Below the pieces are notes generated by a model, which saw only the letters and a list, made by a program, of their open reading frames with translations, made no database searches and had not been told where the DNA came from. Made by a program: the position numbers and the translations under genes. From a virus: a stretch of DNA of 64,000 bases. Positions 27,730 to 60,427 of the stretch are shown here, piece by piece. The DNA lies in IMG/VR virus record IMGVR_UViG_3300037862_000152, positions 1 through 64,000 of that record; one strand, given 5' to 3'. Each line of letters starts with the position of its first letter. The first letter of the stretch is position 1.

Positions 27730-29931
27730 TTAGAGCTCGATTGCAGCTGCAGAAGCGCCACCAGTGGTGTCGCGTAGGGCAGCGGCTACACCGTTGACCG
27801 AGATGGTTGAAGTTACCTTTAGAGATTCGATGCCAACCTTGGCAACGTTCTCGAAGGTCTCAACGAACATCTTGTAGTCGTTGGTGCCGACTAGGCTGGA
27901 GTCGCGGATGATTCCGAGGTCCAGGGTACCTCCGTCTAGGAACAAGAATGTTCCTTCGGCGAATAGGTACCAGTCGAAGCTGTCTGCGAACTCGGTCATA
28001 ACGCCCGTAGCCTGTGCGCCAAAAGCGCCTGCATCAAGAGATGCAATTAGGTCGACGTTTGCACCGGCTAGGTAACCGTTGATCTCGGACTGGCCGACAC
28101 CTAGGGTTCCGTCGCCTGGCATTGACAGAGTCAAGTCAGCGGACATTGCGTCATACACCCAAGCTGGGACGATTGCCTTTAGGCGAGCGTCTGGCGATAG
28201 GCGGTGACGGCTACGGTAACCAGCTGCTGCACGGCGGATCTGGACTAGGAAGTCGCGACCAAAGCCGATTAGTGAGGTGGTAGTGATAGAGGTTGATGCT
28301 GCACCAATAGCGGACAGCAAGTTAACCTCTGCCTCGCGTGCGTGCTGAGTTAGACCAAGCTCGTTGTGACGAGCGATCAACTCTGGGTACGCGCGAGTCA
28401 TTAGGTTACCGAACTGCATCTGTAGAGTTACAGCGTCAGTTGATACTACGTTTTCTCCAGCAGCAACAACGGTAAGGCTAGCTTTTGTTGCGCCACCTGG
28501 GGTAGCGTCAGTAGCAGCAGTCCATACACCAACAGCATCTGCGTGAGCAGACAGGATTGGAGGAGTTACGAAGCGAACGCCACCACGGTCAGCCTGGAAC
28601 GCAGGAAGTGCGTCACGAACTGGACGTGCGGTGGTGCCACCAATGCTGTAGACCTCATAGCGGACTTCGGCTGGGGCAGCGTGTCCACCAGAAGCAATAA
28701 GTGCTTCTGAGGAAGTTACAGCCTCAATCTTTGCAGCGTTCTCTAGAGGGTCTGAGGACAATATGCGGTCTTCTGCGTACTGTGTGGTGAAAGATGCAAC
28801 AATGTGCTGCTCTCCGTCGCCACCGTTTACACGGCGAAGAGAGTGAAGTCTCTTTTCCATGGCCTGAGCAACATCAGACATGCTATTAATAGTGCTTCCC
28901 GCGGTGTATCCAGGAATGTCAGCGCCAGCAGTGATTGCCACTGGAGCCTCTGTTACCCGAACTACTGGTTGACGGTCGGCTGGGGCCTCGAAAGGCTGTT
29001 CAGCTGCAGCGGTCACTGCCTGCTCCTTCTGCTCTTCTACGAGAGCTGTTGATGTTTCAATAATTTCTTCTGACGAAAGCTCTGCTTCTTCTACCACTTC
29101 GGCAACTGCTTCTGCAGTCTCCTCTGTAGATAGTTCGGCGGATTCTTCGGTTGGGGTTGATAGTTCAGAACCGTCTACCTGATTAGTTGATGCTTCGATT
29201 GTGGCGTCCTCGACAACCTCGATAACCTCTTCGGTAACAACTTCTCCCTCAGCAGAGAACTCTGCTTCGGTATCGGTTGTAGCTTCAGTGATTTCTTCGA
29301 TGGCAGCCTCAGTCTCGACTGAAGTCTCTGCGACAGCTTCTTCAACTACAACTTCTGCTACCTCTTCGGTAGAAAGTTCAGTTTCGGTTGTAGTCTCTTC
29401 GACAACGGCGTCTCCTGCAGCCTCGAGGGAGGTCTCGTCAGAAGCGGATGCCTTAATTGACATCTCTTCTTCTTCCTCTTCCTTTTCCTCTTCTTCGGCT
29501 GGCATTTCCTCTGCCTCTACCTCGGTCTCAGGGGTTACCTCTTCTGGAGTTTCTTCCATAGGGGCTTCCTCTACCATAGGCTCATCTTCGGTCATGGCCA
29601 TTTCCTCTCCGACGTCCTCTGCTTCACCCTTAACACGGGCAGTAGCTTCAGCAGCACGGGCTGCAAGTTCTGCAGTCTGAGCTTCGCGGTTTGATAGTTC
29701 TCCGCGTACCATGTCTAGAGAGTCAGCTAGTAACGTCATAGCATCAACTGTCTCAGGAGTCGGGTCTTCACCCTCAACCATTTCAAACTGCGAGATGATG
29801 TCTGCTTGTAGCTCTGCGACTTGTTCGTCACCAAGCTCAGAAATTGCATCTAGCTGAGTCTTTATCTGGTCGTACACTGTACCTCCTAGGCCAGTTATTT
29901 TTGGATGTCTAGCATCCTTGATTACAGTCAA
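27730..29931 (-). CDS. Major capsid protein with long acidic N-terminal region
   Basis: A 733-residue protein in two parts. Residues ~330-733 resemble an HK97-fold coat (PVRDALPAFQADRGGVRFVTPPIL, LTQHAREAEVNLLSAIGAAS, FLVQIRRAAAGYRSRHRLSPDARLKAIVPAWVYDAM, DWYLFAEGTFLFLDGGTLDLGIIRD). Residues ~90-310 are extremely rich in Glu with Thr/Val/Ala, almost without basic residues. HK97 itself uses an N-terminal delta domain as built-in scaffold that the protease removes; this region is about twice that size and much more acidic. A maturation-protease-like gene lies just upstream, so cleavage around residue 320-335 is expected. Confidence 0.85.
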   Translation of the reverse strand: MTVIKDARHPKITGLGGTVYDQIKTQLDAISELGDEQVAELQADIISQFEMVEGEDPTPETVDAMTLLADSLDMVRGELSNREAQTAELAARAAEATARVKGEAEDVGEEMAMTEDEPMVEEAPMEETPEEVTPETEVEAEEMPAEEEEKEEEEEEMSIKASASDETSLEAAGDAVVEETTTETELSTEEVAEVVVEEAVAETSVETEAAIEEITEATTDTEAEFSAEGEVVTEEVIEVVEDATIEASTNQVDGSELSTPTEESAELSTEETAEAVAEVVEEAELSSEEIIETSTALVEEQKEQAVTAAAEQPFEAPADRQPVVRVTEAPVAITAGADIPGYTAGSTINSMSDVAQAMEKRLHSLRRVNGGDGEQHIVASFTTQYAEDRILSSDPLENAAKIEAVTSSEALIASGGHAAPAEVRYEVYSIGGTTARPVRDALPAFQADRGGVRFVTPPILSAHADAVGVWTAATDATPGGATKASLTVVAAGENVVSTDAVTLQMQFGNLMTRAYPELIARHNELGLTQHAREAEVNLLSAIGAASTSITTTSLIGFGRDFLVQIRRAAAGYRSRHRLSPDARLKAIVPAWVYDAMSADLTLSMPGDGTLGVGQSEINGYLAGANVDLIASLDAGAFGAQATGVMTEFADSFDWYLFAEGTFLFLDGGTLDLGIIRDSSLVGTNDYKMFVETFENVAKVGIESLKVTSTISVNGVAAALRDTTGGASAAAIEL

Positions 29932-29993: not shown

Positions 29994-32900
29994 TTAGGTA
30001 AGGAGTCGGAGCAACTTGCTCATCTCAGATTGAACTTCACCCTGAGAGTACAGATCTGCACCCGACATGTAGGATTTCAAACTTTGCGTAGCAATATTTG
30101 CATCCTTTTTACCGATTTTTGCCTCGACACGGGTAATCATTTTCTTGATTAAATCCTTTAGTCCAAACGGTAGATCGCTAAACTTTAGTTTTTCTGCGTC
30201 CTTACCAAAAGGCAGGGGCAGATTTGAAATAACCTTGCCCAACTCTCCGGCAGTTGCGCGAACATTCTCCAATGCTTCTGAATTTAAGGCTTTTGAGTCA
30301 ATTCGGTCGATCATGCCGATCAGCTCGCCGCTTGCGTCCGCAGAAGCCTGATAGTCACCAGCAAAGTCTAGGTTCTCAGCATCTTCAGCTTTTTTCAATG
30401 CTTTTGTCAGACCTGCAACACCTAAGTTCTGTTTTAGGCGAGCCAGAACCGTTCGGTACTTACCCTTTGCGTCGCGTGGCTGGTTTACACCGGAGATGTA
30501 TTTAGGCTTGCCACCCTCGTCTAGACCGTTGGGGTCTATTTTACCAGACTTGACGTCCTTAGCTGCTTCAATCTCTTCTTCGGTTTGCTTGTCGGCTTCA
30601 GACTTTGCGTCTTTTAGCTTCTTTAGCTCAGTTTCAGAGATTTCATCTTTCGGAACAGCAGCCACCACTGTTTCAACAGGTAAGTCGCAACCACAATCAG
30701 AATTTGCTGCGGCAGTGATTGATCTACGCATTAAGTCAACCTTGTCGGCTGCTTCCGTAGAGTTTGCATAAGCCCATTCCTGAGGAATCATACTAAATCC
30801 CTTTAATTGACGAGCACGCTTGGTTATGTGCTTACGCACTGCGGATTTCTCAGAGTCTTTTGCTCTTCCGTACGCTTTAATGGAGTTTTGTAAATCAGAA
30901 GTGTCACGAATGGGGTAAGAGCCATCTTTCATGGCGTAGCCCTTTTCTGCTAACTCCATCCTTAGATCACTTGGGATCTTAGCCAGCTCTGATACTGCAG
31001 CAGCAATTAGTGATTTTTCCTTCATCAGGGTAGCGCTAGCGGTTATTGCCTCTAGATTGGCCTCGCGAAGAGATTTCTTGGCAGCTCTTACTCTCATCTT
31101 TAGGTCTGGAGCAGTAGCGGCGAGCTGACCTAGAGTGTTTGCTTTCTGAGATAACGTCTGAACTGCTTGGCTTTTTAGTACTGCCATATGGCTAGCTCCA
31201 GCGGCAACAAGCGCGAATATTTTGCCGGATGCAATCATTGCACGTGCAGTAGGGAATCCAGGAACGTTAACTTGACAAACAGCAACCAGTTCTAAGGACC
31301 CATTAATTGGACGCCAATCCCCAGAAGGTGCTGAGGCGCGAAGTGCTCGTATCTGCATTTCATCAGCGTCTGGACGCAAGCAGCCAGATACCCAAATACC
31401 AAACTGATCCTCGCCAGCGTGCACATCTGCAATAGCTGAGGCGGTGTCGTCGTAATGTCTGGCAGCAGATGAAGCGTCCGCATTTAGTGGAGCATGGCCA
31501 CCAGCAAGGGTTAGTTGACCAACGGTGACATCAGTGCCCTCGGCAGTACTGACTACTCCAGTGTTGAAGTATGCGTACTTGCTACGAGATCGAGGAGGCT
31601 TAGTTGAGCGTGGCAGTCCAATGTGGCTAATGTGCCACGCGGCTATGTGTCCGTAGACACGACCGTCTTTATCTATAGTTAGTGGCGTTGGCTTGAGAAG
31701 TTTCTGGTCAGCAAACCATTGGGCAGGTGGTGCCATTGGAATCTCGGATTCCAGGTACCCAGAAGCCATGATTGGTTCAAGGTCGCAAAAACCGTCAATG
31801 CATTCTTCATATATGCCATCTTTAGGGGTCACTTCGTACTCCTGCTCCCCTTGTTCTTGCAATGATATGCTGCACTCCTGAAATGCAGGCTTAGCTACAA
31901 TTGTAGCAGCCATAATACGGGCCTTGTTTATGGTCAATTTATCCTTGCCCATAACTTCGCCATCTTCAGAGTTTTCAGTCTTTGGGCTCTTGTTTTCTTG
32001 TGCCTCAAATTGATCTAAATCCACGGAGACTCCACGCAAGAAACCATATCTAACTAATCTCTCTGCCTCGCGACCGTAAGGGCCGGAATCAAAAACACCA
32101 CGAGCGTTTCCAACACCTCCCTCAATCCTTTCAACGTAGTCAATTCGACCTACAACTACGGATCCATCGTGACCTGCACCAGTTTTGATCTGCCAAAGAA
32201 GCGGGATCGGTAAGTCACGTACGCTTATCGAGCCTTTTTTAAATTTTCTACCATCACCAGATTCGGCTTCTTCAGGCACAATCAGAGGTATGTAGAATTC
32301 AGCCCCGGACTTACCATAGGAAGCATCAGCGATTAGAGCAACCTTTTCACGCGCATCGGATGCTATTGCTGCTAGACGAGACTTTTCAAAGACTGCTGAA
32401 TCAAATTCTTTCTCAGTTGCAAATAGAGAAGTAGAAGCTTTTAAGCCCTTTCTCTTTCCAACATTTTTTTCGCTTCCAGTGTAGACACCAGTTACTTCCT
32501 TGTGGCGAAGTTGGCAGTAGCCCTTCGCGCGTGGGCCCATGTATTTAGAGAGCTGGCGAACACAGCGAGTCCAATCACCGGGAGTGTTCCAACGGATTTT
32601 TGCTGCGCCCTTGCCCTTAGTCCAGTAGCGACGAAGTGCATCTGCATTACCACGGTTACGGTCAGCACCACCAGCTGAGAGCAACGGCTCCACTACTCTT
32701 TCCCAGAAAATGGAGAATTCGTATGCGGATGCCTGCATAGGTGAAGCCTCGTCAGCTTGCTTAAGTACATCGTCTAGAACTTTTTTATCATCAAGCTCGA
32801 CTACGGGAGGTGGTGTTGATGATTTTAAGTCCATTAGAAGCTGTTCACTTCTCTGCCACTTGCCCTCTTTGCGCTCGTATATTTCCGGCTGCGTAGAGCT

Positions 32901-34358
32901 TGTTGCTGCAGGAACAATTGCAATCAAATCCATTACCGCACCCTTGTCGTCAGGAGACACGATCGCTAAGTATTTAGCAGTGACGTCCGATTCCGACGGG
33001 TCGTTAATCTGATCTACGTCACCAGTGGCGGCGGCGTTTATACCGTGACGTTCTTTAACTAATTTCTTGTCATATGCCTTTAAACCCTTAGGCTTGTCAT
33101 CATAAGTTTTATAAGACTTACGCATTTTTGCTACATATGATGGAAAATCATTAATAATGGAATTAATATCTTTATCACTCAAAACTGGCAGTGTCCCGGG
33201 TAGACGAGCAATTGGAGAGTTTCTTGGGGTCCTGGGCTCGGCAACGATACCGCTGAGGTCTAAGGGAGCGATGTTTTTTGGAACTGGCATCGGCCCCTCA
33301 ACGGAGTCTTCACCTTGCGTGAATTTAGAGTCCACGGAAATATCTTTTCCGCTGTCAAGTTTTACCTTAACTTTTCCCATCGCGTAATCAATCCCGGTAA
33401 TTACTCCAGAACCTCGCTCTGTGTCTCCGCCAACAACAGTTCGCGAGCCGACCTTAACAAAAAGCCCACTAGCGTCTCTCGGCTGAGTTTTGGCTAGATT
33501 AGATCTTTCTTCAGGAGTAAAGTCACCGTCTTTATCTGTAGGGGAATCTGTGGTCCCGGCAGCAGTAATAACCCTGTCGATCATTACAAAGTCTTCTTCC
33601 ATAAGACCATCGGCTACAAGCCTGGTTTCTTCTGGGTCTATCTCATCTAATCTAACCGGCTGATTAGGTCTAGCCTGTAGAAAGGCTGAAATAATTACCG
33701 CAGCAGAGGGGTCTATTATTACATGGTCGAACTCGGAAGTTTCAATATCAGCATCTAAAGCTCGGTCGTATGAATAAACATCACCATCAACGTGGCCCAT
33801 GTCGTCCCAGCCGCAGTCGTCCCAGACGGATACCATTCCATCAACATCAATTTTATATAGACGATCTATACCAGAATTGTCTAGACGTATACGAACCATG
33901 AATTCTGGCCCAAGGAATAGGTCTAATTCGTGGGCTTGCTTAAACGCACTGAGGTCAGGCTCATAGTGGGGCGTTTCTCTGTAATCGGATTCGCCATGAG
34001 ATAGATCATATCCACCTGCAGCGATGGCTCTTTTGTTTTCACGCTCTACAATTGCAGAAGCCCATCTCTGCCCAGCGTCTCCACCCCAAAGAGCCCATGC
34101 AATGCGGCCGTTAGATGGAAACCCATCTTCTCCACGCTCATAGCCTTTTGCTTTCTTGTCAACCTCATGACGAGGGAAGTATTTAGCAATGTGACGAATT
34201 TTTTCGATACCAATTTGACCGCCCTTTGCAAGAGTACGGGCGCTATTAATTCCTACCGGTGTGCCACCTCGCTTGGCCTCCTTGCGCCAGTTTAAAGCCT
34301 TTTTAGCTTCATTCTGAACGCCGCCAGGGATGGTGTACATACGATTAGTGCTCATCAT
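29994..34358 (-). CDS. Giant capsid maturation protease / head morphogenesis protein
   Basis: A 1454-residue head protein. Residues ~5-125 (VQNEAKKALNWRKEAKRGGTPVGINSARTLAKGG, then FPSNGRIAWALWGGDAGQRWA) form a domain common in phage head proteins. Residues ~683-850 (SGAEFYIPLIVPEEAESGDGRKFKK... and the end LTINKARIMAATIVAKPAF) match the S78-type prohead protease pattern. A QPRD-x-G motif occurs at ~293 and ~1294. The rest is helical and charged. The size is several times that of a normal prohead protease, so it probably combines protease with other internal head functions. It directly precedes the capsid gene. Confidence 0.75.
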   Translation of the reverse strand: MMSTNRMYTIPGGVQNEAKKALNWRKEAKRGGTPVGINSARTLAKGGQIGIEKIRHIAKYFPRHEVDKKAKGYERGEDGFPSNGRIAWALWGGDAGQRWASAIVERENKRAIAAGGYDLSHGESDYRETPHYEPDLSAFKQAHELDLFLGPEFMVRIRLDNSGIDRLYKIDVDGMVSVWDDCGWDDMGHVDGDVYSYDRALDADIETSEFDHVIIDPSAAVIISAFLQARPNQPVRLDEIDPEETRLVADGLMEEDFVMIDRVITAAGTTDSPTDKDGDFTPEERSNLAKTQPRDASGLFVKVGSRTVVGGDTERGSGVITGIDYAMGKVKVKLDSGKDISVDSKFTQGEDSVEGPMPVPKNIAPLDLSGIVAEPRTPRNSPIARLPGTLPVLSDKDINSIINDFPSYVAKMRKSYKTYDDKPKGLKAYDKKLVKERHGINAAATGDVDQINDPSESDVTAKYLAIVSPDDKGAVMDLIAIVPAATSSTQPEIYERKEGKWQRSEQLLMDLKSSTPPPVVELDDKKVLDDVLKQADEASPMQASAYEFSIFWERVVEPLLSAGGADRNRGNADALRRYWTKGKGAAKIRWNTPGDWTRCVRQLSKYMGPRAKGYCQLRHKEVTGVYTGSEKNVGKRKGLKASTSLFATEKEFDSAVFEKSRLAAIASDAREKVALIADASYGKSGAEFYIPLIVPEEAESGDGRKFKKGSISVRDLPIPLLWQIKTGAGHDGSVVVGRIDYVERIEGGVGNARGVFDSGPYGREAERLVRYGFLRGVSVDLDQFEAQENKSPKTENSEDGEVMGKDKLTINKARIMAATIVAKPAFQECSISLQEQGEQEYEVTPKDGIYEECIDGFCDLEPIMASGYLESEIPMAPPAQWFADQKLLKPTPLTIDKDGRVYGHIAAWHISHIGLPRSTKPPRSRSKYAYFNTGVVSTAEGTDVTVGQLTLAGGHAPLNADASSAARHYDDTASAIADVHAGEDQFGIWVSGCLRPDADEMQIRALRASAPSGDWRPINGSLELVAVCQVNVPGFPTARAMIASGKIFALVAAGASHMAVLKSQAVQTLSQKANTLGQLAATAPDLKMRVRAAKKSLREANLEAITASATLMKEKSLIAAAVSELAKIPSDLRMELAEKGYAMKDGSYPIRDTSDLQNSIKAYGRAKDSEKSAVRKHITKRARQLKGFSMIPQEWAYANSTEAADKVDLMRRSITAAANSDCGCDLPVETVVAAVPKDEISETELKKLKDAKSEADKQTEEEIEAAKDVKSGKIDPNGLDEGGKPKYISGVNQPRDAKGKYRTVLARLKQNLGVAGLTKALKKAEDAENLDFAGDYQASADASGELIGMIDRIDSKALNSEALENVRATAGELGKVISNLPLPFGKDAEKLKFSDLPFGLKDLIKKMITRVEAKIGKKDANIATQSLKSYMSGADLYSQGEVQSEMSKLLRLLT

Positions 34359-34924: not shown

Positions 34925-35716
34925 TCAAGAGGGCCCTGGTCTTTCAGCGGTGTTTTTTAGCTGTAGGTCCCTAGCAGCGATAGCCTCGTCGTAGTCGTCA
35001 AAGACTTCTCCCTCTTGAGGATCGTACTTAGATCCAATGCGATCTGCATCATAAGCCATAATTACTACATCTGGCTCACCGTTATTAAATTTACTGTAGG
35101 TTTCTTTGTCCCAGCCATCTGGTGCGAACTCATTATTCCATCGCACTCGAGCTACCGGCTTGAATCCTGCCTTAGCGTATATTTCTGGCAGCACAGTATC
35201 ATATGCATCTAGCCTGTCACCACCTTGATCTACCATCTGAGATAGCATCGATGAGATAGCTCCCTTGTGTGGCGAGTCTCCATAGACAAAACCAGAGACA
35301 ATGTCACCATTGGGCTTTAGTGCAATCCCTGCCGTACCGTCCTCTGTGGAGAATAGTCGCATAGCTTGGTATTCCTCAAGGTCATAGACATATACGGATG
35401 ATGCCCATTTATTATTCTGCTTCAGTAGTTCTATAGATGCACGAAAATCTTCAGCATCTTTTACTGGATCAAGCTCAAATAGATCAGGAGTTGCAAGACC
35501 CTTATCTCGGAGCTCTTGGGCGCGAGCTGTCTCGGGTAGCTTACTCTCTACAGAAAACCTAGTGCTTTCGCTTCCTGGATCTTCTCCTCGGTCCACTCCA
35601 CGTCCGGGAATGCTTTCGCCGCTCTGTCTCGATCTTCCTGAGTTACTGGTTGTTCCTGATCCTGAGCCATCGTTGTCCTCTTCTGGGCTATCGCCCCCTT
35701 GCGCAGGGGCTAATCT
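34925..35716 (-). CDS. GNAT-like C-terminal extension reached by -1 frameshift
   Basis: Open frame downstream of, and -1 to, the 949-codon head gene. A free start would be the GTG at 35596, but it has no Shine-Dalgarno sequence, and the frame runs open upstream to the slippery A AAA AAA at the end of the head gene. The upstream part encodes a Gly/Ser/Asn-rich linker (DGSGSGTTSNSGRSRQSG), as expected of a domain joint. From ~residue 95 on, the frame encodes AGIALKPNGDIVSGFVYGD, then AYDTVLPEIYAKAGFKPVARVRWNNEFAPDGWD, which resembles GNAT-type acetyltransferase-like domains found at the ends of phage head proteins. With frameshifting the fusion would be about 1211 residues, with 263 from this frame. 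Confidence 0.6.
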   Translation of the reverse strand, partial: RLAPAQGGDSPEEDNDGSGSGTTSNSGRSRQSGESIPGRGVDRGEDPGSESTRFSVESKLPETARAQELRDKGLATPDLFELDPVKDAEDFRASIELLKQNNKWASSVYVYDLEEYQAMRLFSTEDGTAGIALKPNGDIVSGFVYGDSPHKGAISSMLSQMVDQGGDRLDAYDTVLPEIYAKAGFKPVARVRWNNEFAPDGWDKETYSKFNNGEPDVVIMAYDADRIGSKYDPQEGEVFDDYDEAIAARDLQLKNTAERPGPS

Positions 35717-35724
35717 TTTTTTGG
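35690..35724 (-). promoter_or_regulatory. -1 ribosomal frameshift signal
   Basis: In the frame of the 949-codon gene the end reads CCA AAA AAA GAT TAG, giving the slippery heptamer A AAA AAA (35717-35723). Five bases later a GC-rich hairpin starts (GCCCC with GGGGC around TGCGCAAG, about 35694-35711). Slip, spacer and stem match the textbook -1 signal. Confidence 0.65.
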
Positions 35725-38559
35725 TATCTCTTCTCCAAGAGCGTACACTATGATTTCGGTTCCACCGCCACTAGTAGCTACTGTAAATGCAATACTTTCT
35801 TCGCCATCTTCGCCTCTAACGAACCTAGAAGACACGATCTCTCCGAGAGTACCTTCACCGTTTAGATTAGGCAACATGTCACCAGGCTCTAGATCATCTA
35901 CAACATCTGGTAACGGGGCGTCGGGCTCTGCGGCAAACGTGTCAACGCCTGTTGGGTCGTTAGGGCTGTCGGTAGAGGAGTCTCCGTAGAACCCAAGGTT
36001 TGCTCGGTGATCTCGTAGCTCTTTACCATCAATGTTTGGACTATATTTACTTAGCGGGGTGTCCTGGTCTTTCAGTATCCTCAACTGTATGGCGTTAAGG
36101 CGAACAGTTTTTCCATCGGCATCTTTTAGGTATATAAAGTCATTGTAATCGTAGCCTTCATTACCTGGGCTAACGTTGACGTTAGGTGCATATCCAATTA
36201 CAACGAGGTTCAATAGCTCTTCCTTGTTGTTTTTGTACTCCACAACCTGGCCAGGCTCAATAGGCGTGACACGGTTCTTTGATGCGTAAGGATTAGCCTT
36301 AGTCTCAGCGTCTAGATCGTATGTTTTGCCCATAGACATCCTAGAGGCGTTAGTAATTAGTCCGCCCATCTTGCGAGCGCTTTCCTCAGGGAACCGATTT
36401 TTAAATTCTAGTCTTAGCTGTTTTCTAGCCGCCCTGTGGGCACGTGAATCAATAGGAAGTCTTCCGAACACTCCAAGGAGACCGTGATATATCGCATCTT
36501 TCAGCTCAGGGTCGTCAGAGTTGTCCTTGTACTCAGGGTAAGCTTCCCAAATACTAAGTACGTCTCGGTGCTTGAATGTGCCCTTGTCTTTGTGGAAAAT
36601 CTTTGGACGGCCATTGCCATAGAAAGTTGCAAGACCTTCTGGGGTAAACATTTTCTGCTTCATCTTGTACCACTCAGCACGCTCTCTGAGAGAGGCCTCG
36701 CCGAAACCAGGAATAGGTGAAGCATTTCCCTGCTTCAATGGCTCAACGCTGAGTAGTTTAGCCATCAGACCATCCGAGGAGTTGTCTTTCCTAAAGACTG
36801 ATGTTATAGAGTGACGCTTGTCGTAGTGAATTAGAGTTTCAACTTCGCCAGTCTCGGGATCAGTCCAATTCATGGAGTAAACTAAGGCTTTAGATCCAGT
36901 GTTAGATGCTTTAAGCTCAAAAATTCTGCCGTCGCTGTCTATTCTGCGATCGAGAATTAGCGCGTCGCCCTCGGGAGTAAATTTAGCGTTTGGATACGCT
37001 TCGGCTAGCGAGTTCAGTAGCTCAAACGGGTCGGAAGCTTGCTTCCTCTTTCCGTTATTGTCAAAGTATTCTAGTATGCGTCCCATTTTAGTTATGAAGG
37101 CAGGTATCTTTTTTCTAACTGCCTCGGTGCGCTCTTCATCAGTTAGGGGGCTGTGAACGATGTCGCCGCCATCATCGATCTTATCTTCAGGCGGGCCTTC
37201 TGTAGTACTAGTTGGCGGAAGTAGAGGTGGCTCTTCTTTAGTAGTAGGTAGCTCTGTGGTCTTATCTACCGGTTTTGGAGCGGGCTTAGCTGGCTTAGCT
37301 GGTTTTGCTTTCGCAGTTGGCTCAGTAGGCTCGGTAGGCTGAGCGATAGTAGCTTTTCTGCCTTGCACAACGTTAAGTTTCCTGGTCAGATCTATAGGAA
37401 CCTCTGCTACGGTGCCATCCTCATTCTGTAGTTTCATGAATGATCTACCGCCACTGCTGGGATCCAATTTCAAGTCAACAATGACGGAATCTTTACCTGC
37501 CTTCGAGCGAACTACGTCTCCAACATTTAGATTCATAGGAGCCGTTGGCTTGAGGCTGCTTTTTTCACTAAACAGCTCGTCCAGAGCCTCGAATTTTACC
37601 TCGGTATCTCCATGCAGACTGACTTCAGCCATAATATTTGCAATTGCATTGTCTGCGACTTTAGCGGGGTTTCGGTTTTTTACGTCAGCTGGGGTCCACA
37701 TGTCGCGTAACATATCAGGATCAAGCACCCCGGTAGGAAGTGTAGATTTGCTACCTACCTTCTCATTGCGAATCCTAACAACACTTCCATCTGGGTTATA
37801 CCAATAGTCATTAGTGTCCCACGTCCCGCCATACATCCGTGTTCCTGGTACAAACCTGGCACCAGGTTGAATGCCTCCTGTAGAGTCTATAAGACCCGCG
37901 TCACGTAGCTTTATGACCTCGAGTGCAGACTTTGGTATGAGATCAATAAAAGGAGAGTCTGCCTTGCCCGCTTCGTCTAGAAGTTTGTTAACGTCTTCGC
38001 CTTCAACAGCTTGCTCTGCAAGTGCTGGTGGAAGTTTTGCTAGAGGCTCCTTGTCGCGCTCTGCGCGGAATTCTTTATCTTCCTCATCAGTCAGTCCATT
38101 GGTGGCAAGTTCAATATCTAGCTCATCGCCCGGCTGAGCGTTCATGTTCTCTAGCTTCTGAGGCATATCAGCTATTGACTTAGGAAGGTCATGCTGCAGA
38201 TCGGGGTCAATACCCTTCTTCTTCAAGAAGTCGCGATTTATCTGAATCTTGGACTCTAGCTCACCATTTTTAGAGTCTACTTCAAGTACCGTATTTTCTG
38301 GAATTCCCGAAGCTCCGTAGCCCTTGTCAACGAGCATGCGAATATCATTTTTTTCACCCTTTTTGGTTGCAGTGCCTCCAACGGCCCTACCTTTTACTTT
38401 TAATATTTTGCCATTAGAGAGCGAGACGCTTGCAAACATGGCTGCGCCTGTTGTTACCCAACGACCTTTTTTATCACGAGGTTGCTTCCTAGCCCTCAGG
38501 CTTTTTGAAGCACTAGAGTTTCCACCCACTGCAATTATTGACTTAAGGGAGTCGGACAT
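35710..38559 (-). CDS. Large multidomain head-associated protein
   Basis: A 949-residue protein. It begins with the motif QPRDKKGRW (~24-32) that is also found twice in the giant protease protein. The rest is a chain of small beta domains (e.g. LNVGDVVRSKAGKDSVIVDL ~345; VEYKNNKEELLNLVVIGY ~765; LEPGDMLPNLNGEGTLGEIV ~890), each opening with a 'GD-V' turn like SH3/KOW barrels. A Pro/Lys/Ala/Thr-rich linker sits at ~405-450. Position between portal/Dps genes and the protease suggests an internal or minor head protein. It ends at a probable -1 frameshift site, so a longer form is expected. Confidence 0.7.
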   Translation of the reverse strand: MSDSLKSIIAVGGNSSASKSLRARKQPRDKKGRWVTTGAAMFASVSLSNGKILKVKGRAVGGTATKKGEKNDIRMLVDKGYGASGIPENTVLEVDSKNGELESKIQINRDFLKKKGIDPDLQHDLPKSIADMPQKLENMNAQPGDELDIELATNGLTDEEDKEFRAERDKEPLAKLPPALAEQAVEGEDVNKLLDEAGKADSPFIDLIPKSALEVIKLRDAGLIDSTGGIQPGARFVPGTRMYGGTWDTNDYWYNPDGSVVRIRNEKVGSKSTLPTGVLDPDMLRDMWTPADVKNRNPAKVADNAIANIMAEVSLHGDTEVKFEALDELFSEKSSLKPTAPMNLNVGDVVRSKAGKDSVIVDLKLDPSSGGRSFMKLQNEDGTVAEVPIDLTRKLNVVQGRKATIAQPTEPTEPTAKAKPAKPAKPAPKPVDKTTELPTTKEEPPLLPPTSTTEGPPEDKIDDGGDIVHSPLTDEERTEAVRKKIPAFITKMGRILEYFDNNGKRKQASDPFELLNSLAEAYPNAKFTPEGDALILDRRIDSDGRIFELKASNTGSKALVYSMNWTDPETGEVETLIHYDKRHSITSVFRKDNSSDGLMAKLLSVEPLKQGNASPIPGFGEASLRERAEWYKMKQKMFTPEGLATFYGNGRPKIFHKDKGTFKHRDVLSIWEAYPEYKDNSDDPELKDAIYHGLLGVFGRLPIDSRAHRAARKQLRLEFKNRFPEESARKMGGLITNASRMSMGKTYDLDAETKANPYASKNRVTPIEPGQVVEYKNNKEELLNLVVIGYAPNVNVSPGNEGYDYNDFIYLKDADGKTVRLNAIQLRILKDQDTPLSKYSPNIDGKELRDHRANLGFYGDSSTDSPNDPTGVDTFAAEPDAPLPDVVDDLEPGDMLPNLNGEGTLGEIVSSRFVRGEDGEESIAFTVATSGGGTEIIVYALGEEIPKKD

Positions 38560-38614: not shown

Positions 38615-39343
38615 CTAACTGACTTGATTCTTTTTATTTTTTAAGGTTTCCACGTGATAAACAGTAACTGGACTGAGCGCACCACTGGAAATTAGGACAT
38701 TCAGCCTAGTGGTCGCATGCAATACCTCTATGCCGCCGGAGCCTATATCAAAAGCAGAAAGAAGTGCTTCTTTGGCAAAGTCATCCAAGTCAGGGGCACC
38801 ATAGACCCACTCAAGGGAGTCTGCAATTGAAGAGTCTCTTCCCGGATGTCCGGCTGGTAGAAGAATAGAATACTCTGATAAATCTTCAAGATCCTCAGAA
38901 ACGCCTTCGGTTGCATATTCTACGTATGTGAATACTTCCCACAGAATCGCTAACTCAAGTTCTTCGGTGTCTCCGAGGTAGCTATATTTGTCGCAGGCTT
39001 TTCTAGCAACTTGATAGGCATCTTCTTTGCGAACTCGCCTGGAGTGCCCAAACTCACTATTAACACTTGCAACTATCTCATCTATGGATGCCGCAGAAGG
39101 GACGCAGTTTGGTACTTTTTTGCCGTTCTTCTTTTTTGTACCTACTTGGACATATCCCTTCCAGCAAGGATCGTCAGAGTCTTTTTCTAGAGCCGCTGCT
39201 TCGTGCGCTGAATCTTTCATTAACTCTCCGTCTGGCATATAGTGATAACCTTCGGGAGCTTCCTTCTTATCGTTATCGAGAATCTGTTCTGGTGAAGCGT
39301 ACTCTCCAGAGGCGTTTAAAACTTTATCAAAGTACTCAGACAT
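38615..39343 (-). CDS. Head-region hypothetical protein with DPCWKGYVQVG motif
   Basis: A 242-residue protein. Residues ~55-85 contain DDPCWKGYVQVGTKKKNGKKVPNCVP, a short motif recurrent in structural proteins of tailed phages, in which two cysteines flank a basic turn. The C-terminal half is helical. I know no function for it. It is encoded immediately after the Dps-like gene with no gap. Confidence 0.65.
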   Translation of the reverse strand: MSEYFDKVLNASGEYASPEQILDNDKKEAPEGYHYMPDGELMKDSAHEAAALEKDSDDPCWKGYVQVGTKKKNGKKVPNCVPSAASIDEIVASVNSEFGHSRRVRKEDAYQVARKACDKYSYLGDTEELELAILWEVFTYVEYATEGVSEDLEDLSEYSILLPAGHPGRDSSIADSLEWVYGAPDLDDFAKEALLSAFDIGSGGIEVLHATTRLNVLISSGALSPVTVYHVETLKNKKNQVS

Positions 39344-39802
39344 TTAGCGAACTCCTAGGAATGCATTGATCTGCCAGTTGAATGTTTTATGTGTATCAAT
39401 ACGGCCTGCAAGAAAATCCATTAGTCCTTGCTCATTGCACTCTTCTGCCATCTTAAATGCGTCGAATAGAGAGTGAACTAATTCATCATTAACTCTTTTA
39501 GCAGACTGAAGCAAGAAAACGGGAGAAGTTCCATCTAAGCGCTCTTCTTTGATAGAGGACATCTCTATATAGTCACTTAGAAGATATGGCGCAGGGAATC
39601 CAGCTTTAAGAATATTTTCGCCCAACTCGTCTATTGAGCCGTCTACATCCTTATATAGAGTCTTAAAGAACTTATGATACTCACCAAAGTCTGGGCCCAA
39701 GACGTTCCAGTGATAGCCGTGGAGGATAAATTTAGCCGTGACTGTATTAGCCAGTAATTTTGCCAATCTTGCAACTAGTTCTGGTTTTTGATCAATATGC
39801 AT
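39344..39802 (-). CDS. dps: Dps-type ferritin with complete ferroxidase site
   Basis: A 152-residue protein of normal Dps length. HWNVLGPDF and EYHKFFKTLYKDVDGSIDELGE are the family signatures. The four ferroxidase ligands known from Listeria Dps (His31, His43, Asp58, Glu62) are all present at the same numbers here. Dps proteins form 12-mers that oxidise ferrous iron with peroxide and store it, and often bind DNA. This one lacks a long basic tail. It is embedded in the packaging/head operon, one base from the portal gene, so it would be made late; a role in the virion or in protecting DNA against oxidative damage is inference. Confidence 0.88.
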   Translation of the reverse strand: MHIDQKPELVARLAKLLANTVTAKFILHGYHWNVLGPDFGEYHKFFKTLYKDVDGSIDELGENILKAGFPAPYLLSDYIEMSSIKEERLDGTSPVFLLQSAKRVNDELVHSLFDAFKMAEECNEQGLMDFLAGRIDTHKTFNWQINAFLGVR

Positions 39803-39803
39803 G

Positions 39804-41552
39804 TTAAGCCTCTGGCTCTGCTAGTGGTGGCGGTGTTGTTTCTTCTTGCGTTGATTCTTCAGCAACATCTTCTGTAGTTGACGAAGCACCAGTACCCGCT
39901 GGGGTCAAAAGATCATCAATCTCTGGGGGAATAGCAGCACCATTATTTTCCATGGTCTGCTGCCTGAGTGCACCCATCATCTCTGGAGCCACCGACTGTA
40001 GCATCGCCTCGGTAAGTTCAGGTGTTACCATGCCTTTTTGCATCACTAAACGAAGTGCAAGCTCTTTAGCATCCGGTGCGTCTGCCGCAGAGAATCCATG
40101 TGCGCGACGCCAGGTGTCAAATGATACTGCCATCTTGTCAAATCCAGAGTCCGCGTCTGTAGCGCGGTCGTTTCTGGTAGACACTAGGCTAGGATCATAC
40201 CAAATGCAGACATCTTTAACTTCTGCCTCAGAGTAACCGTTGGCAATTAGGTATGGACGTAAATACATGACTGTCAAGGCGTCAACTATCAGAAGCATCA
40301 GAGGCTCAATGTGAGCCTTGTAGAGGCTCTCGTCTATCTGCAGCGCGTTAGAGTACTTAACGTTGGCAAGTCCCGTTACGATGTCTTTGGGGACGTCTAG
40401 GCCCTGCATGATACGCTCTAGTACACGGTCGGAGCGCTCTCCAAGAGCTGGGTCGAAGGAACGTTCGAACTTAAACTGCTTGATCTTGTCGCCAAGCTCT
40501 GCTGGACCACGGATAATTAAGGGCACAACTGCAGATGCAGAATCTTCGTCCTTAATCGGGGTGGTCATTGCATCGATTAGCTGATCTTCGAAGTCGTCTG
40601 CGGCCTCTTCGGGATTATATTGCTCGTTGTAATTACCGTCTTCGTCGTACGGGTAGTCTGGGTCCGGAGTCGAAGCCACCGATAGGCCGTCAGGTAGGTA
40701 GAGAGCACCAGCGTTAAGGCGAGATCTTGCAGTCGCACGGAATGTCCTATTCAGTAGTAGCAATTCAGCGCAAAGGTCCAATAAACCTCTTAGGGAAGAG
40801 TCAGATTCCTGACTATAGCGAGGGTGAGCTCGCCAAATGCGACCAACATATGAAGTTTTTGGTAGATGAATGATATCACCAGTACCCTTTCCAACACCAC
40901 CGGTGCCAGCTGGGTCACTGCGAGGATTAAGAATGTAATTACCCCTAGAATCAACTTGTAGCTCATCGGTTGATCTGATGTCCCAGGTCTCGGGGTAGCC
41001 CGATCCTAGTCGTTCTGGGACCTGAACTAGGTAGCACTCTCCAGTAACTTGCAAGTTTAGCGCTGCGTCTTTTAAAAGACCAGGCTGTCCACCGTAGGCA
41101 GAGCTCAAGCGGTCGAGGGCTCGCTGAGCAGCTTGTGCTAGTCGGGGCTCTATCTTAGCTACTGAAACAATTGGAGAAGGTGCTTCACTCGGATTGCCTA
41201 TAGCTGCTGCGTATAGACGAATTCTTGAGACAACAGACGCAACTAGGTTGAAGGCATATTTAATCTCACCAATTGCGTCGTAGTATTCCCATGCTTCGCC
41301 CTGCCAAGAGGTAGCGGCGGAGTTCCTGCGAGCTTTAAAGTACTCTGCTTCAGTTTTATCATCTAGCTTTACTTGAGCAGCAGCAGCAGTTATTGGTCTA
41401 GGTGCGTTGAACGCGCGTGGTTCAGCATAAATAATACCAAAAGAGTCAACTGAGACACCCGGGGCAATGCTAGTAGTGTTCTTTGGGGCGGAGGCGCGTA
41501 AATTACGGCCGGAAGCCTGTAACTGCTGTGGTTCTTTTTTAAAAATACCCAA
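39804..41552 (-). CDS. Portal protein
   Basis: A 582-residue protein after the terminase, as usual for a portal. The pattern AWEYYDAIGEIKYAFNLVASVVSRIRLYAA, EPRLAQAAQRALDRLSS and GLDVPKDIVTGLANVKYSNALQIDESLYKAHIEPLMLLI (the crown/stem helices) fits actinophage portals. The last ~50 residues are a disordered Glu/Thr/Pro tail. It follows a small membrane protein gene and is followed at once by the Dps gene. Confidence 0.88.
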   Translation of the reverse strand: MGIFKKEPQQLQASGRNLRASAPKNTTSIAPGVSVDSFGIIYAEPRAFNAPRPITAAAAQVKLDDKTEAEYFKARRNSAATSWQGEAWEYYDAIGEIKYAFNLVASVVSRIRLYAAAIGNPSEAPSPIVSVAKIEPRLAQAAQRALDRLSSAYGGQPGLLKDAALNLQVTGECYLVQVPERLGSGYPETWDIRSTDELQVDSRGNYILNPRSDPAGTGGVGKGTGDIIHLPKTSYVGRIWRAHPRYSQESDSSLRGLLDLCAELLLLNRTFRATARSRLNAGALYLPDGLSVASTPDPDYPYDEDGNYNEQYNPEEAADDFEDQLIDAMTTPIKDEDSASAVVPLIIRGPAELGDKIKQFKFERSFDPALGERSDRVLERIMQGLDVPKDIVTGLANVKYSNALQIDESLYKAHIEPLMLLIVDALTVMYLRPYLIANGYSEAEVKDVCIWYDPSLVSTRNDRATDADSGFDKMAVSFDTWRRAHGFSAADAPDAKELALRLVMQKGMVTPELTEAMLQSVAPEMMGALRQQTMENNGAAIPPEIDDLLTPAGTGASSTTEDVAEESTQEETTPPPLAEPEA

Positions 41553-42224: not shown

Positions 42225-43646
42225 CTATCTAGCCCTAAAAACGCGGCCAACTTGGCCAGTATTAGGCCTAGTTACGCCCATTTTGCGATCTGCGAGGCTT
42301 TTCGCACGCAATTTACCACCAGAAAAGCCCGGTGGTGGTTTAATTAGTAGAGCAGTCATAGCGTGAACCATTGCATCGATGCGGTCAGGGGATTTACCCT
42401 CTCCTGGGATCCAAGAGTACATCTGAGATTCTAGTTCTGGGAGGTAGTTCACGTGGTGGACTCGTCCTTGCTCGTATGCAAGAAGAATTGGCTCTGCTCT
42501 TAGCTGTTTTCCGTACTTTGAGTGGACCTCAAGGACTGTGACGCTGGGGTCAATAGAGTTGATGGCATTTCGTACGAGCGCGCCACCTTGATTAACTTCG
42601 GCAACAACGGGACAACCCCACTTACGAGCCATTTCCACAACTTTACGGGCCCAGGTGTCTGGGGAACCATGAATTGAAGCGTCCTCAAGAACCCAAGCAT
42701 TACGCTTATAGAGGTCGTGTTCTGCAGTCGATGCGCAGACAACAATACCGCACTCGTCGCGGGGATTTTCAGCAACCGAAGGGTCGACGCCGATAACACG
42801 TAGCGGAGTAGACGCAGGGTAATCAGTGTGTCTAGCTGCTTCAACCAATTCTTCATTCCACATCGCTCCTTCTAGGTCATCAAGCATCTCGCCATAGAGC
42901 TCCTGTCGAGCTAGCGACGTGCCTTCGTAGACGCCCATAATAGTTTCAAGATATGCACCGGAGAGATTTCCAGCATTGTCCATTGTGGAGCCTTTTGTGA
43001 CAACTACCTTTGCGGCAGTCGCCTTGTCTGTGCGAGATTCTTCAATAAGTTTATAGAGAAGCGGAGTGCGCTTCGGAGTGGTGGTGGCCAAGATCTGAGG
43101 ATTCTTACCAAGACGAGTACCGACTCGTAAGTTGTCAAAAGCAGTCATGCCCGCAGCGTCTGGGGTCTGCCGCCAGGCGGCAACTTCGTCCCCCCATGCG
43201 TGACTAAATTGTGGTCCACGCAAACCATCAGGTTCGTCTGCCGTAAACAATGTCGCAGTGTTACCGTTCGGCCAAGTTAGGCGTCTTTTAGACGGCTCGT
43301 AGTGTGGCTTCTCTGAAGGAGGGGAAATGTTTATGATCCCGGATTCGCCCTCGACGATTACGTCTCGAACGTCAGCAGCAGTACGAGCAACAAGTGCAAA
43401 CCGACGTTGACCTTCAGTTGTGTACTTTGCCGTCTCGCGAACCCACTCGGAGGCCATTCTGGTTTTTCCAAATCCACGCCCGGCAAGAACCAACCAAACA
43501 TTCCAGTCGTCAGTAGGAGGAAGTTGCTCGGGGCGCGCCCAAACTTTCCAGTCCCAGAGTAGGGCGTCTGGATCAATCCCCTCTAGTGCAGCAGCCTGCT
43601 CCTCTGGAGGGAGCATTGCAATAAGTTCCATAATACTTTTAGCCAT
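42225..43646 (-). CDS. terL: Terminase large subunit
   Basis: A 473-residue packaging motor. Walker A is AGRGFGKT (55-62), Walker B is the hydrophobic strand with DE in SHAWGDEVAAW, and the motor coupling motif ILATTTPKR follows. The nuclease domain has GVDPS and DRIDAMVHA, giving the acidic residues that cut concatemers. It cuts and pumps phage DNA into the prohead through the portal encoded downstream. Confidence 0.93.
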   Translation of the reverse strand: MAKSIMELIAMLPPEEQAAALEGIDPDALLWDWKVWARPEQLPPTDDWNVWLVLAGRGFGKTRMASEWVRETAKYTTEGQRRFALVARTAADVRDVIVEGESGIINISPPSEKPHYEPSKRRLTWPNGNTATLFTADEPDGLRGPQFSHAWGDEVAAWRQTPDAAGMTAFDNLRVGTRLGKNPQILATTTPKRTPLLYKLIEESRTDKATAAKVVVTKGSTMDNAGNLSGAYLETIMGVYEGTSLARQELYGEMLDDLEGAMWNEELVEAARHTDYPASTPLRVIGVDPSVAENPRDECGIVVCASTAEHDLYKRNAWVLEDASIHGSPDTWARKVVEMARKWGCPVVAEVNQGGALVRNAINSIDPSVTVLEVHSKYGKQLRAEPILLAYEQGRVHHVNYLPELESQMYSWIPGEGKSPDRIDAMVHAMTALLIKPPPGFSGGKLRAKSLADRKMGVTRPNTGQVGRVFRAR

Positions 43647-45027: not shown

Positions 45028-45696
45028 CTAATAACGGATATATGCAACCTTGCTATTCTCGGAGTCTGCAAACTGCGCAATATTCTGCATTACGGTGTCT
45101 TTGTTCGCATTAAGCGCGTCTATCATTAGACCACCACCGAGGTAGATTCCAACGTGATACGCGTTCTCGAAGCCAATATTGGTAAACGCCACTATGTCTC
45201 CTGGAATAGGCGCGTCTACAACTGTGCCTTCATTTTGTTGAGAGGTAGCGGAGTGTGGGAGGGTGATTCCTCTGTAGGTCTCGTAAAACCAAAGTGTGAG
45301 ACCGGAACAATCCCAGGCTTGAGGGGTAGATCCACTGAGAACGTAAGGAGTGACTCCAACGTATTTAGCTAGGTCTGCAAGAGCTACGTCTATATCAACG
45401 TAGAGCTGCTCTTGAGCCTCAAGTGCAATTTCTTTTTGTTTCTTCACTATGTAGATATAACTCTGCTTAGCTTCTAACGTGCCCTGTAGCTCAGCAATTT
45501 TACCGTTTAGGTTGGCAAACTCATCAGCGTGTTCCATTAATGGCGAGATCTCTTCGGTTACAGCTACCGTCTGGTAGATAATCTTGACGTTCTCGAGGTT
45601 CTCAGCGGGGTTAATCTCTTCTGCTACTGCTCCAGAGGTTGATGCTGTCATGCTTATTGCTGCTAAAAATATTAGTGCTTCTGAAATTTTATTCAT
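45028..45696 (-). CDS. Secreted NlpC/P60 peptidoglycan endopeptidase
   Basis: A 222-residue protein with a signal peptide (about 1-26, ending SGAVAEE), a coiled coil (~55-110) and a C-terminal NlpC/P60 domain. The catalytic cysteine is C130 in WDCSGL and the histidine is H181 in AYHVGIYLG. The build matches RipA-type endopeptidases of Actinobacteria that cut peptide stems of the cell wall. As a phage gene it is either the endolysin, exported by the signal, or a virion/host-wall enzyme. Confidence 0.85.
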   Translation of the reverse strand: MNKISEALIFLAAISMTASTSGAVAEEINPAENLENVKIIYQTVAVTEEISPLMEHADEFANLNGKIAELQGTLEAKQSYIYIVKKQKEIALEAQEQLYVDIDVALADLAKYVGVTPYVLSGSTPQAWDCSGLTLWFYETYRGITLPHSATSQQNEGTVVDAPIPGDIVAFTNIGFENAYHVGIYLGGGLMIDALNANKDTVMQNIAQFADSENSKVAYIRY

Positions 45697-59350: not shown

Positions 59351-60427
59351 CTAAATCTTGGCTGGCATTATCGCTTCGCCGAATACTCGACCAAATACAT
59401 CTGAGGCAACTGGTCTGTCAATTTCTGGTGCGCTGGCAAGTAGATTCTGAACTGCCCACTTAGTTCCAAAGCTCTTTGCCAAGTCTCGGAAAGCTAGAAG
59501 CTCTCGGAATTGTGGTGACCATGAAGTCTCGCCATTCTCTACCTTTTTGGATAGATTCTGAGAAGCAACTACGGCACTCTGTGGAACGCCAAGCTTTTTA
59601 GCAAGCGCCCAATCTGTGGTCATTTCGGCATGAATAGCGAACCTCGATAGAAGCGCCTCACTCAGACGAACACCTGCGACATTTGGATTCGTGGCTGAAA
59701 CGACATAGAAGCCCTCTTTAGCCTTGATAGTGCCACGCTCTGGATTCTGAGTTACGACTAGCTCACGCCTTCCGTCCATTAGCCCATAAACAACTGACAT
59801 TACCTTCGGGTCAATCAACCCAATTTCGTCAATCAGAAGTGCCTTGCCCTCAGAAGCAGCTCTGGTCAAAACTCCGTCCACCCACTCAAAGCCACCGCTC
59901 TGAGTCTGGACATAGCCACCGACCAAATCGGCAACCTCAGTATCGCCTGAGCCAAGAATGGTATAAAGTTCCTCTGGAAAAGCAGCTTCAACTAAAGCTG
60001 TCTTGCCTGTTCCTGGGACTCCATAAAGTAGAATGGCATGACCTTCGGCTCTGGCTTTTCTCAGGACCTCGACATCTGTGTGGTCGCCCCAAGGTCGAGC
60101 ATAGTAGTCCTCACCATTTGGTCGAGGATAACTCTCCGAGCCTTCGAGCGAATCTGTGGTTTCCATTGTCTCAACTGTCTCTGCAAGGCTTGGGGTTTCT
60201 GCTCCCAAGTCTATCCCAAGTGGCTTGACTGCTCTTGCCCCTGCCTTCGAGCGAAGTGTTGCCCTGCCCTCTGGTCGCATTAGGCTGTCAAGAACCGAGG
60301 TAGTCACGCCCAAAGTTGGTAGTGCTACTGTGGACGATAGCTCTGTCAAAAGCTTCTCAAAGTCAAAGTCCAAGGCGCTACTGAGCGTTGGTGCTGGTGC
60401 TAGATAAATACTCTTTTTTAGATACAT
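59351..60427 (-). CDS. moxR: MoxR-family AAA+ ATPase
   Basis: A 358-residue AAA+ protein. An N-terminal ~100 residues of low similarity precede the ATPase core: Walker A GVPGTGKT (136-143), Walker B ALLIDEIG (196-203), sensor SATNP (244-248) and an arginine in LLSRFAIHAEM (262). The layout of CbbQ/NirQ/MoxR ATPases is followed, with the partner VWA protein encoded next. It would use ATP to drive VWA-dependent remodelling of a target protein. Confidence 0.88.
   Translation of the reverse strand: MYLKKSIYLAPAPTLSSALDFDFEKLLTELSSTVALPTLGVTTSVLDSLMRPEGRATLRSKAGARAVKPLGIDLGAETPSLAETVETMETTDSLEGSESYPRPNGEDYYARPWGDHTDVEVLRKARAEGHAILLYGVPGTGKTALVEAAFPEELYTILGSGDTEVADLVGGYVQTQSGGFEWVDGVLTRAASEGKALLIDEIGLIDPKVMSVVYGLMDGRRELVVTQNPERGTIKAKEGFYVVSATNPNVAGVRLSEALLSRFAIHAEMTTDWALAKKLGVPQSAVVASQNLSKKVENGETSWSPQFRELLAFRDLAKSFGTKWAVQNLLASAPEIDRPVASDVFGRVFGEAIMPAKI

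Follow-up and report, generated by a model that had tools for sequence, protein, structure and literature searches.

Why should a tailed phage carry a gene for a ferritin-like protein among the genes that build its head? The question is raised by a minus-strand ORF at 39344-39802 of the 64,000-nucleotide stretch analysed here (the window, which is part of a 64,820-base IMG/VR fragment). It starts with ATG and encodes a 152-aa Dps-type mini-ferritin. The initial annotation had described this gene as joined to the portal-head operon with a one-base gap, and our analysis confirms this: the portal ORF (39804-41552, minus strand, 582 aa, TTG start as listed; PHROG 776, E=8.5e-102) ends at 39804, and dps starts at 39802. 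A Shine-Dalgarno-like AGAGG (39808-39812, minus strand) lies within the last portal codons, 5 bases upstream of the dps ATG. It is also present in the nearest relatives, and this arrangement fits translational coupling of dps with the portal gene. On the 3' side, dps is directly abutted by a minus-strand gene (38615-39343, start at 39343) for a 242-aa protein with the motif CWKGYVQVGTKKKNGKKVPNC, which is shared with Dps-DUF5824 fusion proteins of a sister clade (described below).

The block to which these genes belong runs on one strand in the order terminase, portal, dps, head-operon proteins, a 1454-aa protein, major head protein and tail genes. The terminase large subunit (473 aa; 42225-43646, minus strand) matches Pfam Terminase_6N (2.4e-23), and the major head protein (733 aa; 27730-29931, minus strand) matches PHROG 777 (E=2.9e-72). 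Between dps and the latter lie a 949-aa head-operon protein with an N-terminal QPRDKKGRW motif (35710-38559, minus strand) and the 1454-aa multidomain head protein (29994-34358, minus strand), which has an N-terminal phrog_2859 match as well as matches to head-maturation-protease and portal-type PHROGs. These last two very large proteins contain short QPRD..G[RKL][FWY] motifs.

The closest cultured relatives of the window's portal and terminase are actinophages, and hence the host of this phage is likely actinobacterial. Cultured-phage portals are 50-68% identical to that of the window; the Actinomycetia phage DSL-LC01, from lake water, reaches 68% for the portal and 73% for the terminase. Other close cultured phages are Microbacterium phages Pumpernickel, A3Wally, Cece and Zooman, Arthrobacter phage Mimi, and Gordonia phages Sixama and GodonK. 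A Dps 99% identical to the window's is encoded on a 129,571-base contig.

Sequence and predicted structure both place the protein in the Dps-fold mini-ferritin family. In Pfam it scores as Ferritin (PF00210; E=1.7e-14, 54.3 bits where the cut-off is 24.5) and among PHROGs as PHROG 3636 (2.6e-17), and its top sequence match among solved structures is Pseudomonas PaDps (PA0962, PDB 8ff9; 8e-19). An AlphaFold2 monomer model built from 61 phage sequences (pLDDT 96.4, pTM 0.91) has helices at 7-33, 39-66, 75-81, 94-121 and 125-149, i.e. the four long helices and short BC helix typical of Dps. In Foldseek, the best matches of this model are all Dps structures (TM 0.90), with PaDps again the nearest. 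Scores against three NCBIfam Dps equivalogs fall below their cut-offs (NF041388, 32.3 vs 170 bits; NF006975, 30.7 vs 114; NF052461, 19.7 vs 300), and the protein is therefore a Dps-fold member but none of these three named equivalogs. Neither of two PROSITE-type Dps signatures matches it. A chance or broken ORF is ruled out by the family match, the confident fold, and the conservation and purifying selection described below.

The initial annotation called this Dps catalytically complete, citing its HWN and DELGE signatures and His31, His43, Asp58 and Glu62 at the same numbers as in Listeria Dps. All of these are there, although the residue following DELGE is N where R is usual. Across 155 distinct phage Dps, from all gene contexts, H31, W32, H43, D58 and E62 are invariant; the only other fully invariant columns are G36, F39, W143 and R152 (the last counted where the alignment reaches that column). 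The four metal residues have thus not been lost in relatives. Y50, part of the radical-trapping pair in Listeria, is retained in 150/155. Position 47 is another matter. The canonical Dps ferroxidase centre includes a fifth residue, an Asp (PMC6675082), and at this Listeria position the window Dps has Lys, as do 15/15 of its nearest relatives; Lys is invariant at this site throughout the window's clade. Asp occurs here in 2/155 distinct phage Dps, while other portal-linked phages mostly have Gly or Ala. As the bacterial Dps we sampled mostly have Glu or Met at this position, Asp47 is not universal, and Lys47 therefore leaves family membership standing.

Completeness hence depends on which Dps is taken as the standard. 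In PaDps, the di-iron site is bound by exactly H37, H49, D64 and E68, and iron is oxidised with H2O2 rather than O2 (PMC10002758). These four ligands align with H31, H43, D58 and E62 of the window Dps, so the PaDps-type site is kept in full, but only four of the five canonical residues are present. PaDps is the nearest solved relative by both sequence and fold and has these four ligands in common with the window Dps; it differs in being a cellular gene with about 27% identity, in having Glu where the window has Lys47, and in a large Tyr network that is not shared as such. Listeria innocua Dps (1qgh) resembles the window Dps in the numbering of H31, W32, H43, Y50, D58 and E62 and in the lack of a DNA-binding tail, but it has Asp47 instead of Lys and shares about 20% identity. 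From its residues and modelled fold, we predict the window Dps to be ferroxidase-competent.

Could such a protein instead condense or coat the phage DNA, in the style of E. coli Dps? The label of PHROG 3636, "DNA binding protein", would suit this, and DNA shielding was part of what the initial annotation envisaged. The window Dps is acidic (pI 5.46, charge -6), with neither a basic or lysine-rich N-terminal tail nor a C-terminal one, and we did not find shielding by binding to be borne out. Some Dps also protect DNA without binding it, according to the title of PDB entry 1o9r. We therefore consider coating very unlikely.

To see how firmly dps belongs to this locus, we can compare it with the portal gene beside it. 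Among the 80 nearest portals, dps immediately follows the portal gene in each case with enough downstream sequence. In a tree of 142 portals, dps lies directly 3' of the portal gene in 69/69 readable lineages of the window's clade, whereas in the sister clade it is present in 33 lineages and absent in 19. The soil isolates Pumpernickel, A3Wally, Cece, Zooman, Mimi, Sixama and GodonK all lack dps, as does DSL-LC01, which falls inside the sister clade. The gene has not merely moved in such cases; no relocated dps was found elsewhere in four IMG/VR contigs (37-131 kb) and four complete cultured phages that lack it beside the portal. Five loci retain just a stub of Dps consisting of the first helix, and in L303, L300 and L309 this helix is joined in frame to the remainder of a fusion protein, so that loss by in-frame deletion is directly visible. 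The simplest reading is that dps was gained before the two portal clades split and was then lost several times. Since several sister-clade lineages and DSL-LC01 live without it, dps is not essential to head assembly.

Dps and portal distances are strongly correlated (Mantel r 0.84; 0/999 permutations as high), which supports vertical inheritance of dps with the portal gene. Within the window's clade, dN/dS is 0.02-0.10 for dps against 0.07-0.12 for most portal pairs (with dS often saturated), values that point to strong purifying selection on dps. This history leaves little room for a recently captured host gene without a lasting role. The GC content of dps (0.41) is slightly below that of the portal gene (0.50), and alleles are swapped between close relatives, as a recent capture might lead one to expect. 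Nevertheless, all phage Dps form one clade, separate from all sampled bacterial Dps with 100/100 support (the bacterial sample being drawn with two peptide patterns and from 247 genomes of one actinobacterial class). Ordinary actinobacterial Dps also score only about 25-57 bits against a phage Dps profile, and conservation is long-standing. Within this sampling, the tree and profile scores refute recent capture, which we regard as scarcely credible. A stray host gene, the possibility that the initial annotation had left to phylogeny, is thus not what the tree returned: the phage clade stands apart, with dps fixed beside the portal gene.

Local exchange of dps alleles between close relatives does occur. 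The portals of L006 and L008 are almost the same while their Dps have diverged, and in L304/L306 vs L312 and L282 vs L283 near-identical portals accompany Dps that are clearly different or absent. A search of cultured phages with the window Dps gave only eight distant matches, none of them in the related actinophages, and repeating this search with a divergent Dps member gave no closer match. The best "bacterial" match, L069, proved to be phage sequence within a gammaproteobacterial MAG. In this Lake Erken MAG labelled Gammaproteobacteria, a major head protein gene (PHROG 2522) is followed by dps (L069:2175-4435); it is probably a mis-binned phage contig or an infecting phage.

The window Dps is a single-domain protein without a fusion partner, but in other phages the same domain is fused to head-linked proteins. 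In part of the sister clade, Dps is N-terminal in proteins about 400-730 aa long, followed in varying combinations by a cysteine-rich metallothionein-like stretch, a four-cysteine module, a CWDGYKQVGMKKGKNGNMVPNC motif and DUF5824. The Dps-DUF5824 fusions sit after the portal gene, in frame. The CW...PNC motif of these fusions is found in the window in a separate gene, the 3' neighbour of dps. Metallothionein-like stretches (e.g. CPLCGPVGCVCPGCDNGYCLCGEDCPCPQC) directly follow Dps in L282:5612-7789, L251:5093-6829, L264:1800-3113, L292:3086-3670 and L262, and in L286 the cysteine-rich stretch is kept without Dps. When a model of a Dps-DUF5824 fusion (pLDDT 72) was used for a fold search, only Dps matches were returned, with none for the partner domain.

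In a second kind of fusion, the in-frame partner of Dps is Peptidase_S78, the prohead serine protease. A scan with these Dps gave 14 ORFs that match the protease strongly (E values of about 1e-31 to 1e-39 for those scanned with Pfam), with L395 (1e-6) and a weak case, L369, in addition. Dps precedes the protease in, for example, L370:4608-6818, L367:3289-5352, L372:3879-5450 and L405:717-2024, and follows it in L395:4320-6215; as both domain orders occur, the fusion arose more than once. The Dps tree likewise requires several changes to account for the fused proteins, at least two of which are forced by well-supported branches. Family matches across L370 and L383 confirm an HK97-type cassette of terminase, portal, the Dps-protease fusion and major head protein, and a phrog_2859 module is N-terminal in both the L370 fusion and the window's 1454-aa head protein. 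Elsewhere, dps follows the major head protein gene (L069, mentioned above) or lies between the minor and major head protein genes (L358). Multidomain Dps-fold proteins of this kind are also listed in BFVD; three entries from uncultured Caudovirales (A0A6J7WVS4, A0A6J7XDU5 and A0A6J7WPK9; 333-763 aa) have the same fold and 37-39% identity to the window Dps, and are annotated as Dps or "Prohead protease". These are known as database entries only.

Fusion to a prohead protease and to a DUF5824 protein next to the portal might suggest that head proteins use the Dps cage as a platform for assembly or as an internal scaffold, with its iron chemistry secondary. The canonical Asp47 has been lost, as has the A-E-R motif, which would be in keeping with such a structural or oligomerising module. 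A platform needs none of the four iron ligands or the radical-quenching Trp, yet these are invariant across the 155 sequences while most of the surface is variable, and clean in-frame loss of Dps from a fusion protein is tolerated. A mainly structural role thus seems improbable to us.

The fusions instead suggest where Dps goes. In phage T4, the prohead core holds the prohead protease together with passenger proteins (PMC9958956), and hence a Dps fused to this protease should enter the head. By this analogy, Dps is likely present in the virions of the protease-fusion relatives, and free portal-linked Dps, by kinship with the fused forms, may also lie inside the head. Our best explanation, to which we give about even chances, is that the window phage makes a ferroxidase-competent Dps with its head, most likely loads it there, and so guards its genome from iron and peroxide. 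The initial annotation had favoured a role during packaging or in virions over one in early host takeover. That preference is strengthened by the DUF5824 and prohead-protease fusions, although shielding by DNA binding finds no support here.

For the dodecamer, its activity, timing, virion location and benefit, we infer the following course. Late in infection, dps would be translated with the portal gene, and its product would assemble as the usual 12-subunit cage. Fe(II) would be bound where two subunits meet, by H31/H43 from the first and D58/E62 from the second, and oxidised, most likely with hydrogen peroxide as in PaDps. Most likely the cage would be produced at the growing head and taken up into it. 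Iron and peroxide would then be removed from the surroundings of the genome, both while it is being packaged and once it is inside the particle, with less radical damage as the outcome, and the cage could possibly be released into the next host.

Several observations speak against this explanation: the window Dps is free rather than fused, its canonical Asp47 is Lys, and in some phages dps lies outside the head genes altogether. Proteins of head operons also need not enter the head. In L381, L389, L404 and L412, dps is read from the other strand and has replication genes on one side and tail genes on the other (neighbours called by sequence inspection rather than family match). Linkage to head genes thus characterises the window's lineage and several others but does not extend to every phage Dps. 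In the same four loci, dps has genes for small lysine-rich proteins (AEKKKAPAKKTAAW..., KGRKSYEKANPGSDLKPPV) beside it.

Dps has previously been reported from phages. It occurs in Gratiaviridae and 36 other gut phages, where it was taken as an oxidative-stress gene (PMC8008677), and in Lactobacillus phages with dps near replication genes, which were given a similar stress-gene reading (PMC6669764). These proteins are also phage-encoded and Dps-like, with PHROG 3636 covering the family, and were described as auxiliary stress genes; our searches of these two papers found neither portal linkage nor head-protein fusion. The window Dps could be a late cytoplasmic antioxidant or iron buffer, which keeps host iron freed during takeover from forming radicals while genomes are packaged, and then stays in the lysate. 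The earlier readings, the relatives with dps outside the head genes and the unfused state of the window Dps are all compatible with this. What it leaves unexplained is the portal-locked position across a whole clade and the repeated fusions to the prohead protease and a portal-adjacent protein. We consider it a possible explanation, albeit a rather doubtful one.

Phage Dps has so far been filed as an accessory stress gene, but here it acts like a head-operon gene: its position is fixed, its catalytic residues are strictly conserved, and it has been fused more than once to head proteins, among them the prohead protease. We found no description of a portal-linked Dps or a Dps-prohead-protease fusion in the open-licence literature. 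The portal-locked lineage and the repeated head-protein fusions thus appear undescribed, although phage Dps itself is known and the sequences are public. Two known systems offer partial parallels. Polyvalent proteins are multidomain and encoded beside virion genes (PMC5512222); the sister-clade Dps fusions are alike in both respects, whereas the window Dps has a single domain and so falls outside this class. Neither Dps nor ferritin appears in the main text of that survey. Encapsulins show that an HK97-type shell can enclose ferritin-like cargo (PMC8346489), and the likeness lies in linking a ferritin-fold enzyme to such a shell. The window differs in that its Dps lies among the terminase, portal, protease, major head protein and tail genes of a phage head operon, rather than with an encapsulin shell.

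If the cage does enter the particle, this encapsulin arrangement of an HK97 shell with ferritin-fold cargo has a counterpart in living phages; packaged genomes would be chemically protected, and the particles would carry iron. We tentatively propose, at somewhat less than even confidence, that the heads of a widespread lineage of tailed phages contain an active iron cage of the ferritin type. Head assembly would bring this cage in by one of three routes: as a free protein linked to the portal (the window's group), as a portal-adjacent metal-rich fusion (the sister clade) or as a prohead-protease fusion (the HK97-type phages). If true, these particles would be the viral equivalent of encapsulins that load iron. 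As dps lies inside the head block and is fused to a head-maturing enzyme in relatives, our results suggest that in many aquatic phages a scavenger of iron and peroxide is made, or carried, along with the particle.

Some other genes near these loci were also noted. In DSL-LC01, the gene after the portal encodes RRDRKGRFAEMGG and has a DUF3626 match. In the window, an NlpC/P60 peptidase gene (45028-45696) is found upstream of the terminase gene, outside the tail genes. A 358-aa ATPase (59351-60427) matches PHROG 16448 as well as the "porphyrin biosynthesis" PHROG 249 (E=2.5e-21), and is possibly a cobalamin-type accessory gene.
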